IMG/VR virus record: IMGVR_UViG_3300022858_000161
Coordinates: 1-43,123 of that record
Direction: 5' to 3' (one strand)
Source: a virus
Length of the DNA: 43,123 nucleotides
In this document: positions 22,886-33,308 of the stretch, in pieces
Layout: each line of letters opens with the position of its first letter
Position numbering within the stretch: the stretch's first letter is position 1
Notes under the pieces: model-generated
What the model was told of the DNA's origin: nothing
What the model saw: the letters and a program-made list of their open reading frames with translations, nothing else
The model's database searches: none
Translations under genes and position numbers: made by a program

Positions 22886-23668
22886 ATGATTGAAGAAAAA
22901 TTTGATAAAATAGTATCTATTATGGATATTGCTGATAGTAAAGCATTATCAGATAGGTTCTCAACAGGTTTTAAAGCATTTGATGAAGCTATGAATAATG
23001 GCTTTAAAGTTGGTGATCTGGCTATTATTAGCGGACAGCCTGGCGCTGGTAAAACTACTTTAGCGCAAACACTAACCTATAATTTATGTAAAAACCAAGT
23101 GCCTTGTTTATGGTTTTCTTTTGAAGTAGTTGTGTCTGAGCTTAAAAAGAAATTTATGAATATGGGTATTGATCAGGAATTTATGACTTATGTGCCTAAA
23201 AAAAATATTAGTAGTAGTGTGGATTGGATAAAAGAAAGGATAGAAACAGGTTTAAAAGACTTTATGACTAAGGTTATTTTCATAGATATGATTGATAATG
23301 TTATCCCAAGGGAGAATAAACAGGGCGATTCTAGGGAACAAACCTTGAAAAATATCACTAAAGAACTCAAAGAAATAGCGATTGAACACGAAATAACAGT
23401 TGTTCTAATGGTTCATCTCAAGAAAACAGAACTTAGCAAAGAGCCTGATATGTCAGATATTGGTTATTCAGGTGGTATTGCCCAGTTGGCTGATTATGTT
23501 TTTATGCTTTACAAGGAACAATCAAAGGCATCTAAACTTAGACAAGAAGATACTAGTGGCTTATTTGAAGAAAAACCCCTGATTATTAAAATTGAAAAAA
23601 ACAGGGAGACCGGCAAAAAGGCTTATGTTAAAACTATTTTTGATAAAGGTAGGTTAATAGAATTATAA
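22886..23668 (+). CDS. DnaB-type replicative helicase ATPase domain
   Basis: A 260-aa RecA-fold ATPase. Walker A is GQPGAGKTT near residues 50-58, Walker B is VIFIDMID near 130-137, and the core continues with VVLMVHLKK near 172-180 and the SGGIAQLADYVFML segment typical of DnaB C-terminal domains (around 192-206). The N-terminal primase-binding domain of DnaB is absent, so this is a short, single-domain helicase or a loader-like ATPase. It follows the initiator gene directly. Confidence 0.75.
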   Translation: MIEEKFDKIVSIMDIADSKALSDRFSTGFKAFDEAMNNGFKVGDLAIISGQPGAGKTTLAQTLTYNLCKNQVPCLWFSFEVVVSELKKKFMNMGIDQEFMTYVPKKNISSSVDWIKERIETGLKDFMTKVIFIDMIDNVIPRENKQGDSREQTLKNITKELKEIAIEHEITVVLMVHLKKTELSKEPDMSDIGYSGGIAQLADYVFMLYKEQSKASKLRQEDTSGLFEEKPLIIKIEKNRETGKKAYVKTIFDKGRLIEL

Positions 23669-23686
23669 AATAATTAATATAAAATT

Positions 23687-24115
23687 ATGTCAAAAAGAGG
23701 ATTTTATGGAATAGCATTTTACGAACCAAAATTTACTGAAAATATTGGAACTGCTATTAGAAACGCCCATTGTTTTGATGCTGATTTTATTTGCTTAATT
23801 GGTAAAAGATATAAAAAAACTCCTAGCGATACAACTAAGGCTCAAAAACATATACCGCTTTATGAATATAAAGATTTAAAAGATTTTATCGAACATACGC
23901 CAAAAGATTGTGAAATAGTATCAGTTGAAGTTGATGGAAATGATATAAAGAATTTTGTCCACCCAGAAAGAGCTATTTATCTAATTGGTGGTGAAGATAG
24001 AACTTTGCCAATAATAAAATCAAGAAGAGTTACATTCCCAACTAGGTATTGTGTTAATATGGCAGTTGCTAGTGGATTAATTCTTTATGATAGAGTAATA
24101 AAAAGTAAAATATAA
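23687..24115 (+). CDS. SPOUT-class (SpoU/TrmH-like) RNA 2'-O-methyltransferase
   Basis: A 142-aa protein with the three SpoU motifs: NIGTAIRNAHCF at 19-30, LIGGEDRTLP near 99-108, and CVNMAVASGLILYD near 122-135. These form the knotted S-adenosylmethionine site of enzymes that methylate ribose in tRNA or rRNA. It is about the size of TrmL (157 aa), without an extra RNA-binding domain. It is unusual in a phage replication cluster; it may alter host tRNA or protect phage RNA. Substrate unknown. Confidence 0.8.
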   Translation: MSKRGFYGIAFYEPKFTENIGTAIRNAHCFDADFICLIGKRYKKTPSDTTKAQKHIPLYEYKDLKDFIEHTPKDCEIVSVEVDGNDIKNFVHPERAIYLIGGEDRTLPIIKSRRVTFPTRYCVNMAVASGLILYDRVIKSKI

Positions 24116-27634: not shown

Positions 27635-27835
27635 ATGTTTCTAATAAATTCTTATAGTTGTTTAATTGGGTCTTGGTCTAAGTCTAGGTCTGGGTCTGAG
27701 TATAGGTCTAGGTCTGGGTCTTGGTCTAGGTCTTGGTCTGAGTCTGGGTCTGGGTCTAGTTCTTGGTCTAGGTCTGGGTCTAGGTCTGAGTCTGGGTCTG
27801 GGTCTGAGTCTTGGTCTTGGTCTAGGTCTAGGTAA
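27635..27835 (+). CDS. possible Ser/Arg/Gly repeat protein encoded by a hexanucleotide repeat
   Basis: A 66-aa frame starting 2 bases after the previous stop, with a normal-looking N-terminus (MFLINSYSCLIGS) and then SG/SR/SW dipeptide repeats that come from the GGTCTN hexamer array at 27668-27834. The other frames and strand read as GL and RP repeats, so the coding status is uncertain; the repeat alone keeps all frames open. No leader of the usual kind precedes the ATG. Confidence 0.3.
   Translation: MFLINSYSCLIGSWSKSRSGSEYRSRSGSWSRSWSESGSGSSSWSRSGSRSESGSGSESWSWSRSR
27668..27834. repeat. hexanucleotide tandem repeat (GGTCTN)
   Basis: About 28 tandem units of GGTCTR and variants (GGTCTG, GGTCTA, AGTCTG, GGTCTT) in 167 bases. 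The unit length, a multiple of three, keeps frames open across copy-number change. The array is strand-biased, G-rich and C-poor in its unit on +, unlike the AT-rich genome. It could be a low-complexity coding stretch, a protein-binding array or a slippage hotspot. Confidence 0.85.
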
Positions 27836-28655: not shown

Positions 28656-29270
28656 ATGAAAGACACAAACAAAAATTCAGAAAATTTAAAAGATTGCGAT
28701 TCCTGCAATTCCTGCGATTCCTGCGATTCCTGCGATTCCTGCGATTACTGCGATTACTGCAATTCCTGCTATTCCTGCTATTCCTGCGATTCCTGCGATT
28801 CCTGCTATTCCTGCAATTCCTGCTATTCCTGCTATTCCTGCGATTACTGCAATTCCTGCGATTACTGCAATTCCTGCTATTCCTGCAATTACTCTAAAGG
28901 ATTAAGAATGTCAGAAAAAATGATATTTTGTCTTGGAGAAGGAAAATATGAAAGAGAAGGAAATGGTTATCAGAAGAACTATATGGCTTTTAATAAAAAA
29001 GTTTCAGAAGAAAGATATTATGAAATTTTAGATAAAGTAAGAAAAATATTAAAAGATTTAAAATTAGAATTAAACAAAAAAGATTGGTCAAATGAGTGGA
29101 AAAAAGTAACCAGAAAACAATGGATTGAAATATCTAAAATACCTAAATTTAATAAAAACATTGTTGAAGAAATAACTGGCATTGAATTAGATTTAGATAA
29201 AACAGAATTCTATTCAAAGGAAACTATTGAAAATGCTAAAAGAATATTAAAAGATGTTGGGGAGTTGTAA
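28656..29270 (+). CDS. Cys-triplet repeat protein (X-S/Y-C repeats)
   Basis: A 204-aa protein. Residues 14-77 are an uninterrupted tripeptide repeat [D/N/Y]-[S/Y]-C with 22 Cys at every third position. A soluble C-terminal domain (about 86-204) is charged and helical with a MIFCLGEGKYE start and KDWSNEWKKVT. Cys on each third residue cannot be a standard zinc ribbon; it could form a metal-thiolate ladder, a disulfide-stacked solenoid or a redox or metal sink. It is in the accessory region after a tiny membrane protein. Family not recognised. Confidence 0.7.
   Translation: MKDTNKNSENLKDCDSCNSCDSCDSCDSCDYCDYCNSCYSCYSCDSCDSCYSCNSCYSCYSCDYCNSCDYCNSCYSCNYSKGLRMSEKMIFCLGEGKYEREGNGYQKNYMAFNKKVSEERYYEILDKVRKILKDLKLELNKKDWSNEWKKVTRKQWIEISKIPKFNKNIVEEITGIELDLDKTEFYSKETIENAKRILKDVGEL
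28695..28886 (+). repeat. nonanucleotide coding repeat (GATTCCTGC type)
   Basis: Twenty-one tandem 9-base units of the form NAT-TMC-TGC (GATTCCTGC, TATTCCTGC, AATTCCTGC, GATTACTGC) encode the Cys-triplet repeat. TGC is used for every Cys, and the units differ only at fixed positions, which suggests recent expansion. Unit length preserves frame on slippage, so copy number may vary in the population. Confidence 0.9.
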
Positions 29271-31551: not shown

Positions 31552-32451
31552 ATGAAAGCTATTAGATTCAAAAAAAATAGTAACGACAATTATTCTACAT
31601 ATTATGCAGAGATGATGGTTGATAATGGCTATACAGATAAAACATTATTTAAACAAGTTGGGGGAATATTGTATGAAATCACAGAAAATGGAAAATATAA
31701 TGTAATTGAAGTTGATATAAGAGATATGTTTCAATTTGAATTTAATGACATTTCAATTAAAAAATATGTAGAAAAAAAAGATATTGAAAGTTACAAAGAG
31801 GAAAAGGTTGGAAGTCAGAAAATTGCCGATATAGTAATTCCCCATCACACAAATCATAGCGATTTAAAAATATTATTAGAATGTTTAGATGTATCTTTAT
31901 TCAATATAATCATTGTGTCTGGTAATTCATTTGGAGTTAATTGCAATAAGGGTGCAAAACTTGCTGAAACAGATAAAATTATATTTATGAACGATGATAT
32001 TGAAATAACCACAGAACAAATATTAAGAATAGTTAATAATATAGGTGAATATGATTTTGTAAGTTCAACTCAAATTGCCGGTACTGATGTTATAAAGAAA
32101 TATTGGGGTATTGGATTATTTAAAAATGAAGATGGCAGTATTAGACATCAAATAGCTATCAATGAAAAAAAATCATTATTTCATTCTGGGTTTTGCTTTG
32201 GGGTTAAGAAAGATACTTGGAAAAAGATTGGTGGATTTGACGAGAGATTTATGACAGGAAATGAAGATGTTGATCTTGGATTTAAAGCATTAGAAATGAA
32301 ATGTAAAATTAAAATACTTGATCTTGATATAAGACATAAAGAATGTCAATCAGAGGGAAGATTTGACCATTGTGATGAGAATGAAAAGCTTATCTACAAG
32401 TTATGGGATCAAAAGTATTTAAAAAAGATTTATAAAAAATATTACAAATGA
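31552..32451 (+). CDS. family 2 glycosyltransferase
   Basis: A 299-aa protein. The first 85 residues are an unusual extension. A GT-A domain follows: ADIVIPHHTN near 96-105, MNDDIEI (metal and sugar-nucleotide binding DxD-like site) near 146-152, and GGFDERF with NEDVDLG (acceptor site, catalytic base region) near 226-243. It transfers a sugar from a nucleotide donor. Its stop overlaps the next gene start by 4 bases (ATGA). Acceptor unknown; may be a virion or cell-surface glycan. Confidence 0.75.
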   Translation: MKAIRFKKNSNDNYSTYYAEMMVDNGYTDKTLFKQVGGILYEITENGKYNVIEVDIRDMFQFEFNDISIKKYVEKKDIESYKEEKVGSQKIADIVIPHHTNHSDLKILLECLDVSLFNIIIVSGNSFGVNCNKGAKLAETDKIIFMNDDIEITTEQILRIVNNIGEYDFVSSTQIAGTDVIKKYWGIGLFKNEDGSIRHQIAINEKKSLFHSGFCFGVKKDTWKKIGGFDERFMTGNEDVDLGFKALEMKCKIKILDLDIRHKECQSEGRFDHCDENEKLIYKLWDQKYLKKIYKKYYK

Positions 32452-33308
32452 AAACAAATGAAAAATCTTTAAGAATTTTATTGATTTGTCAGACCATGAC
32501 TTATTTATCTGGTAGTCCTTTATACAATTATACTCTAGCATTAGAATTGAAAAAACGAGGACACGATGTTTCAATATATTCAATGTGGAAAGATAATGAT
32601 ATTAAAAAGAATTTGACCAAAGAAAAAATATTAACTTGGCATGAATATCCAAAAGGAGAATTTGACTTAGTTATAATATCACAAGTGAATAATAAAGATG
32701 TATTAGATATGATTAAGGCAAAGAAAGTAATCAATGTAGTTCATAGTGAATATAAATGTGAAACTCCAATAATTAGCGATAAGATTGACCAATATATAAC
32801 TATAAGACCATCAATAAAAAAGCATTTAGTTGAAGAACACAAAATACCAGAGAATAAAGTTAGTGTTATTTATAATGGAATTGACTTTGAAAGATTTAGT
32901 CCGGATAAAAGGAAAATCCACGATGGAGATTATACAAAAGTTGTTTTACCTTGCACAATGGATATGTTAAGGATTAAGTTTTTAGAATATTATACTAAAC
33001 GAGCAAATAAAAAATTCAGAGTTTATATTTATGGAACAGAATATGATAATTACTTTTATAGGAACGAATGGGTATTTGTAAAAAACGAGAAATTTGATAT
33101 TGAGAATTATATAGCTGACGCTGATTATGTTGCTGGGATACTTTTGGGGAGAATTAATCTCGAGAGCAGGGCAATGGGTATAATTTCATATATACACGAT
33201 CCAGTTGATCCGAATATTCAAGAAACATATTATCCAAATGATAAAGAATTTAAAGAAAGACACGATATAGTCAATGTAGTAGAAAAAATTATTAAATTAG
33301 CAAAATAA
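32448..33308 (+). CDS. GT-B (family 4-like) glycosyltransferase
   Basis: A 286-aa protein with an N-terminal Rossmann half (LRILLICQTMTYLSGSPLYN, then ALELKKRGHDVSIYS near 27-41) and the linker motif VSVIYNGIDFERFSPD near 138-153, which in family 4 precedes the donor-binding half. The C-terminal half is short and lacks the usual E-x7-E motif, though ESRAMG near 240 may replace it. Overlaps the next gene (TAATG). It may act after the family 2 enzyme. Confidence 0.65.
   Translation: MKTNEKSLRILLICQTMTYLSGSPLYNYTLALELKKRGHDVSIYSMWKDNDIKKNLTKEKILTWHEYPKGEFDLVIISQVNNKDVLDMIKAKKVINVVHSEYKCETPIISDKIDQYITIRPSIKKHLVEEHKIPENKVSVIYNGIDFERFSPDKRKIHDGDYTKVVLPCTMDMLRIKFLEYYTKRANKKFRVYIYGTEYDNYFYRNEWVFVKNEKFDIENYIADADYVAGILLGRINLESRAMGIISYIHDPVDPNIQETYYPNDKEFKERHDIVNVVEKIIKLAK

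Follow-up and report, generated by a model that had tools for sequence, protein, structure and literature searches.

What kind of protein places a cysteine at every third residue, 22 times in succession, and what use could a phage make of it? The question is raised by the window, i.e. the whole stretch of 43,123 nucleotides analysed here, a 43 kb virus record with tailed-phage genes. These include a DnaB-like helicase (starting at position 22886), an exonuclease (24942), a RusA-like resolvase (30519), the terminase large subunit (38581) and a P22-like portal protein (40123); the gene in question sits in the replication/nuclease half. The relevant features are the following:

27635..27835, plus strand: open reading frame of 66 aa with an (S-X)n array, upstream neighbour of the ladder gene (ORF and repeat analysis)
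28656..29270, plus strand: gene of the Cys-ladder protein, 204 aa (ORF calling, composition, phrog_15341 match)
28695..28886, plus strand: Cys ladder with 22 Cys codons, residues 14-77 (Tandem Repeats Finder, unit list)
28887..28895, plus strand: 22nd and last unit, N-Y-S, in the same register as the end of the ladder in relatives (alignment)
28896..29027, plus strand: conserved cap (alignments, hhalign, cap HMM with controls)
29007..29267, plus strand: helical C-terminal region (AlphaFold2 models)

The ladder gene and its relatives in phages

The protein contains 23 cysteines, 22 of them in the ladder, at residues 14, 17, 20 and so on up to 77 with a spacing of exactly three residues, and one, C92, in the downstream domain. 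The first ladder cysteine is followed by 21 X-X-C units, and in the 22nd unit, N-Y-S, serine replaces cysteine. Every ladder cysteine is encoded by TGC, once per 9 bases, within the unit TGC-[GAT]AT-T[CA]C, and the array (28695-28890, period 9, 21.8 copies, 89% match, score 280) is the top-scoring tandem repeat that Tandem Repeats Finder reports in the window. The ladder of 22 regularly spaced cysteines followed by a separate domain, as described in a sequence-only reading of this DNA, is thus confirmed by ORF calling, composition and repeat finding. The pI is ~4.1 for the ladder half and ~9.1 for the domain. The cap reads KGLRMSEKMIFC...GYQKNYMAFNKKVSEERYYEI, with L83, M85, E87, F91, C92, F112 and N113 invariant in the alignments. 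In the AlphaFold2 models, helices are predicted at residues 118-131, 144-148, 153-160, 167-174 and 188-203, the mean pLDDT of 10-residue blocks in the helical C-terminal region being about 63-91. There is a single cap and, outside the ladder, no CxxC pair.

Pfam and NCBIfam yielded no family match for the ladder protein; in particular, no zinc-finger or metallothionein model matched, in line with the earlier remark that the spacing resembles neither. Likewise, tblastn with three queries found no ladder-protein match among cultured-phage records. The PHROG family phrog_15341 does match, covering the ladder and the cap start (E 9.4e-11 against the window protein; E 5.7e-12 in a genome scan, with 0/14 control genomes matched), but, its function being unknown, it explains nothing.

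In IMG/VR, a search with a degenerate nucleotide pattern encoding [DNYH]-[SY]-C repeats matched 89 stretches, many of them a ladder followed by the same domain; several matches, such as L013, L025, L040 and L085, were discarded as chance low-complexity DNA devoid of the domain. Searches with the domain only returned 7 and 37 loci. The repeat search combined with a check for the shared C-terminal domain, which the sequence-only reading had proposed, recovered 56 distinct in-frame arrays with the domain, of 7 to 41 cysteines each, from ~50 uncultivated phages that are not otherwise related. Wherever a relative has the domain and its upstream DNA can be read, also in those found by the domain alone, the ladder has been kept in frame; among these relatives, no ladder is frameshifted or absent. 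Hence, the ladder is not a product of chance.

The family comprises a class A form (LRMSExMxFC...QK..R.FNK) and a shorter class B form (C[KE]NLVNGFMC...YWIFNKEVSKEEW), the latter often with a C-terminal CxxC pair. One member, L018, has a minimal, bacterial-like cap (CVNVRDLQYAILNVEFTKEEYE), and in another, L102, serine stands in place of several ladder cysteines. The 50 ladder loci have almost no neighbours in common within 6 kb, which identifies the ladder gene as mobile cargo, that is, a mobile accessory gene of phages. Nuclease, SSB-like, RusA, methylase, terminase and capsid genes recur in its vicinity, and it is often found near replication or nuclease genes. Across the 50 phages there is no conserved gene neighbourhood, save an OB-fold/SSB-like gene of about 130-170 aa located directly upstream of the class B ladder in five phages (L014, L024, L034, L038, L056). 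Six ladder proteins (L010, L016, L047, L058, L060, L139) share the C-terminal tail LxGKxVxVxLDGxxYxAxI; this tail, together with alternative ones, suggests that C-terminal modules can be exchanged. L108 encodes, about 3.2 kb upstream of its ladder, a protein with a low-complexity AAESAW / SAECA repeat of Ala, Ser and Trp, a further type of array in these phages. Elsewhere in the window, a SpoU-family RNA methyltransferase homologue (23687-24115) and, judged by eye only, a glycosyltransferase-like protein (32448-33308) were noticed. The ladder family, then, is real, widespread, unnamed and odd.

Patescibacterial relatives and the three-residue register

A scan of GTDB genomes detected two ladder-phage contigs inside metagenome bins, one labelled Candidatus Saccharibacteria (L105) and the other uncultured bacterium (L106). 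When 287 genomes of the L105 phylum were searched with the phage-model profile, it recovered the phage locus and, in five genomes, six proteins (E 2e-5 to 3e-4) of Patescibacteria, a group of tiny parasitic bacteria. All six are open frames of 238-656 aa with CxxC motifs, Cys-rich repeats and the same ladder-cap order, their cap reading ..C..C.GL..KQYCIFNKQYTKEEYE. The cap motif was recognised before the profile search was run, and the searches served as a test. The Patescibacterial cap, C-x-GLxxKQYCIFNKQYTKEEYE, is homologous to the phage cap (hhalign probability 95%, E 2.6e-8), and an HMM of the bacterial cap recognized 36/66 ladder proteins at E<=0.01, versus 1/812 neighbour proteins and 0/66 shuffled domains. 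In the window protein, the motif C-x-[GN]-L-(n)-[YF]-x-[IVA]-[FL]-N-x3-[ST]-x-E-x-[YW] follows a CxxCxxC run, and the three-residue Cys register upstream of the cap is present there as in the bacterial family. In addition, phrog_15341 weakly matches two bacterial homologues, and the bin that holds the L106 phage contig also encodes a homologue of the Patescibacterial family.

The bacterial family was found in 15/240 sampled genomes, often as tandem clusters, with more than 20 hits (21 or more) in each of two Patescibacterial genomes, G016 and G137. In G137 (C1:60896-120003), about 20 copies of Cys-triplet proteins of 550-620 aa lie together within 60 kb, which is a remarkable expansion, specific to this lineage, of a family without a name: no Pfam or NCBIfam model matched the Patescibacterial Cys-triplet proteins above cut-off. 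The likeness to the phage protein consists in the three-residue Cys register and in a cap, C-x-[GN]-L...YC-x-FNK..[ST]KEEY, placed directly after the ladder. However, the Patescibacterial proteins are longer (440-660 aa) and multi-copy; their core residues are mixed, they have two cap repeats, and the CxxC motifs at their N- and C-termini are putative zinc-binding sites, whereas the short phage protein combines an all-Cys ladder with a cap insertion of 13-20 aa and a helical tail of its own. The full-length Patescibacterial architecture is lacking in the window protein, with its 204 aa, single cap and no terminal CxxC. We take the phage protein to be a trimmed, all-Cys relative of a Patescibacterial triplet-register family that has expanded in a subset of genomes. 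The homology, along with the two metagenome bins, suggests that Patescibacteria may be the phage hosts.

The bacterial homologues disclose what the register may stand for. In 24 of them, 2581 of the Cys-Cys distances up to 60 are divisible by three, versus 591 and 437 that fall in the other two phases; the distribution peaks locally at 3, 9 and 12. The in-register residues other than Cys (Ser, Leu, Val, Thr, Ala) are 48% small, 33% aliphatic, 10% charged and 2% aromatic, as opposed to 27-32% charged and 22-26% aromatic, along with Asn/Asp, out of register. A buried core that recurs periodically has just this signature; since the register residues are core-like even when they are not cysteines, the phage ladder can be read as the all-Cys core of a solenoid and not as a metallothionein-like sink.

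In beetle antifreeze beta-helices, the chain points one residue inward and the next two outward (in-out-out); the inward residues are Cys, Ser, Cys and Ala in a right-handed coil of 12 residues (PMC8038014). By analogy, the phage ladder would be a limiting case of this register, with Cys at every inward position. Both TmAFP of Tenebrio and DhbAFP (TCTxSxNCxxAx) have every third residue inward and a Cys-rich beta-helix core (PMC8038014), but these proteins come from a different kingdom and are secreted and disulfide-bonded, with a TxT ice face; the phage protein has no sequence match to them, no TxT and no evident signal peptide. The pentapeptide-repeat beta-helices MfpA and Qnr, also narrow solenoids with an Asp/Asn-rich outside, resemble the ladder in idea only, because their period is 5, with the motif A(D/N)LXX, whereas the ladder has period 3, lacks this motif and shows no Pfam hit.

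The structure prediction that the sequence-only reading had called for succeeded for the C-terminal helices but not for the ladder, where AlphaFold pLDDT was ~28 with a poor alignment and ~33 with a register-aligned one, below 35 throughout. The register-aligned model at pLDDT ~33 places beta-bridges exactly on Cys 32/35/38, 47/50/53 and 62/65/68, i.e. with a spacing of 15 residues and not 12, as this low-confidence model has it; the arrays themselves show a weak lag-4 signal (z 2.3-2.8). Structure searches of the PDB and of the viral models in BFVD gave no significant match, and a sequence search of the PDB gave no relevant one. Given the low AlphaFold confidence and the lack of a significant structural match, the fold is something that we infer: a narrow beta-solenoid with an all-Cys core, a conclusion that is moderately supported.

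The gene product can, accordingly worded as a model, be envisaged as a short cytosolic beta-solenoid that would end in the conserved cap and the helical domain. Each C-X-X triplet would form one side of a narrow coil, in-out-out, with Cys pointing inward and X1-X2 ([D/N/Y][S/Y]) outward; about four triplets, or 12 residues, would make up a coil, which would yield 5-6 coils in the window protein. In the reducing cytosol, the thiols would serve mainly for core packing.

Could the cysteines be there for their chemistry instead? The sequence-only reading had proposed a thiolate ladder or sink for metals or redox stress, and a chain of the metallothionein or copper-storage kind, coordinating metal clusters or reacting with oxidants in the course of an infection, does share with the ladder the many cysteines in a short protein. 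The 22 cysteines, the absolute retention of Cys while X1 and X2 vary, the acidic, Asn and Tyr side chains in many ladders and the frequent C-terminal CxxC pair of class B would all suit such a sink. Nevertheless, it appears unlikely: the homologous register positions of the bacterial proteins, when not Cys, hold Ser, Leu, Val, Thr or Ala, residues that would not bind metal, L102 has replaced several ladder cysteines by serine, and the ladder differs from metallothioneins in its uniform C-x-x spacing as well as in matching no model of theirs or of zinc fingers. Disulfide stacking, the other variant put forward at the outset, may conceivably occur in the ladder.

The ladder might also be a disordered, Cys-rich segment of low complexity that cross-links or phase-separates, its expansion being merely tolerated beside a functional domain. 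The pLDDT values below 35, the variation in array length from 7 to 41 cysteines and the presence of other simple-repeat arrays in the same phages would fit. Yet cysteine hardly drifts over more than 1000 units, each domain-bearing relative with readable upstream DNA has kept its ladder, and the bacterial homologues, being strictly in register, are not low-complexity, so that disorder, too, seems an improbable explanation, and the solenoid remains the preferred one.

Frozen and variable positions of the array DNA

The arrays show an unusual distribution of variation, as can be judged from 56 distinct arrays with 1034 units and 3038 codons. Within an array, unit positions 3, 6 and 9 are almost invariant, yet they differ between phages, and the bases that determine X1 and X2, those at positions 4 and 8, average 1.22 and 0.98 bits. 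Minority codons are synonymous in 27/3038 cases versus 850 nonsynonymous ones, and 48/56 arrays contain no synonymous variant whatever. Among the units one base off the array consensus, 4 changes are synonymous and 435 nonsynonymous, the synonymous fraction expected from a simple mutation model with accepted residues being 0.44. Codons of the NNY type end in C in 66% of cases in the arrays versus 29% in the adjacent domains. Two phages, L106 and L016, share 84% of the domain residues and use the same codon at 60% of the identical ones, and their array skeletons are identical.

The order of units is nearly random, with no consistent autocorrelation and no lag-1 correlation between neighbours, which led us to reject growth by local unit duplication alone. 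The recent expansion envisaged in the sequence-only reading is therefore an oversimplification: the missing neighbour correlation and the synonymous positions, which are frozen across phages, argue against fresh duplication. As these positions are frozen even where synonymous change in the adjacent domains is near saturation, the units appear to have been repeatedly homogenised, and diversified at two residues.

Recombination between arrays is directly evidenced by L116 (9175-10021), which has two tandem ladder genes, and L115 (1463-1735), which has one gene whose array is a chimera of both; mutation was accordingly rejected as the source of the large array difference between these two. Near-identical phage pairs differ by about 48 substitutions, of which 2 lie in arrays, both at unit positions 4 and 8. 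With so few array changes, or none, diversification is not fast over the time separating such pairs, and real-time hypermutation as a fast process was rejected. Nonsynonymous variation without synonymous variation argues for concerted evolution along with diversification of exposed residues; the simplest account would be that recombination keeps the skeleton uniform and selection keeps X1 and X2 diverse.

A more specific proposal goes further and views the protein as a modular recognition rod in which the Cys core is fixed and the surface is combinatorial, as in TAL effectors, with X1 and X2 reshuffled or diversified by a dedicated DNA-level process or by strong selection, and the remainder of every 9-base unit staying identical. 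We consider this doubtful. TAL-effector repeats, an evolutionary analogy only, are likewise near-identical at the DNA level and vary at two residues in each unit, but their units span 34 residues versus three in the ladder.

The charge of the presumed surface is variable as well, the net charge per ladder unit ranging from -0.9 to +0.2 with a median of -0.25; with both charge and composition varying, no single surface chemistry is conserved. The median charge, the ladder pI of ~4.1 and the frequent proximity to SSB, RusA or nuclease genes could be reconciled with an acidic solenoid that mimics DNA, as MfpA and Qnr do, and blocks a host DNA-binding enzyme. Such mimicry is quite improbable, given that two ladders are neutral and that of L135 is positive (+0.21 per unit), so that charge is not conserved.

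That the frozen wobble merely reflects codon bias or an overlapping reading frame, and not concerted evolution, is hardly tenable, even though the array can be read through without a stop in several alternative frames: codon preference is excluded by the different Tyr codons at X1 and X2 within one array in 13/18 testable arrays and by the use of TCC in the window (10/581 Ser codons outside the array, the only Ser codon inside), whereas an overlapping gene is excluded in forward frame 3 by stops in 20/56 arrays and made unlikely in other frames by a wobble base that differs freely between phages.

Arrays of other kinds occur in these and other viruses. The 66-aa frame upstream of the ladder gene in the window, in which the Ser codon TCT alternates with GGG, AGG, TGG and GAG (Gly, Arg, Trp, Glu), is a second array gene with uniform codons, only possibly related to the ladder gene. 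Arrays of the type (TCTNGG)n occur in at least 120 viral stretches, and two close relatives, L128 and L129, carry both the (S-X)n array and the ladder gene. The window (S-X)n array and similar arrays of viral contigs mostly use one codon per residue, although this set, pattern-selected with fixed bases, provides a weaker test; the frozen-wobble effect may thus hold for arrays of this kind in general. In L138 (6260-6380) and L137 (3059-3180), phages that are otherwise about 99.4-99.6% identical, a tandem array with a 12-base unit (TTTACCACACGM) is of unequal length and has different A/C variants.

A possible role and its significance

What, then, might the ladder do? Cysteine is retained with X1 and X2 left free, the protein is related to a bacterial family present in many copies, and the gene has no fixed context; these features point to a rod for binding or decoy with a changing surface, which is the most likely role that we can hypothesize. 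The outer surface of the rod would be re-diversified against a changing host partner, possibly the Patescibacterial family itself. Taken as a whole, the reading of this locus as a mobile accessory gene that encodes a Cys-core beta-solenoid related to a Patescibacterial family and acting as a re-diversified binding or decoy rod has, in our judgment, an even chance of being correct.

The analysis links a widespread phage gene to a multi-copy family of Patescibacteria and presents the ladder protein as a beta-solenoid-type repeat protein, a fold that is moderately supported, with an unusual evolutionary signature. As a candidate solenoid with an all-Cys core, the ladder is very small and easily synthesised. 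Variation that is nonsynonymous but not synonymous recurs in 56 arrays. This evolutionary anomaly is strong and can be tested; it means either intense diversifying selection on the exposed residues or a process of array evolution that spares specific positions.
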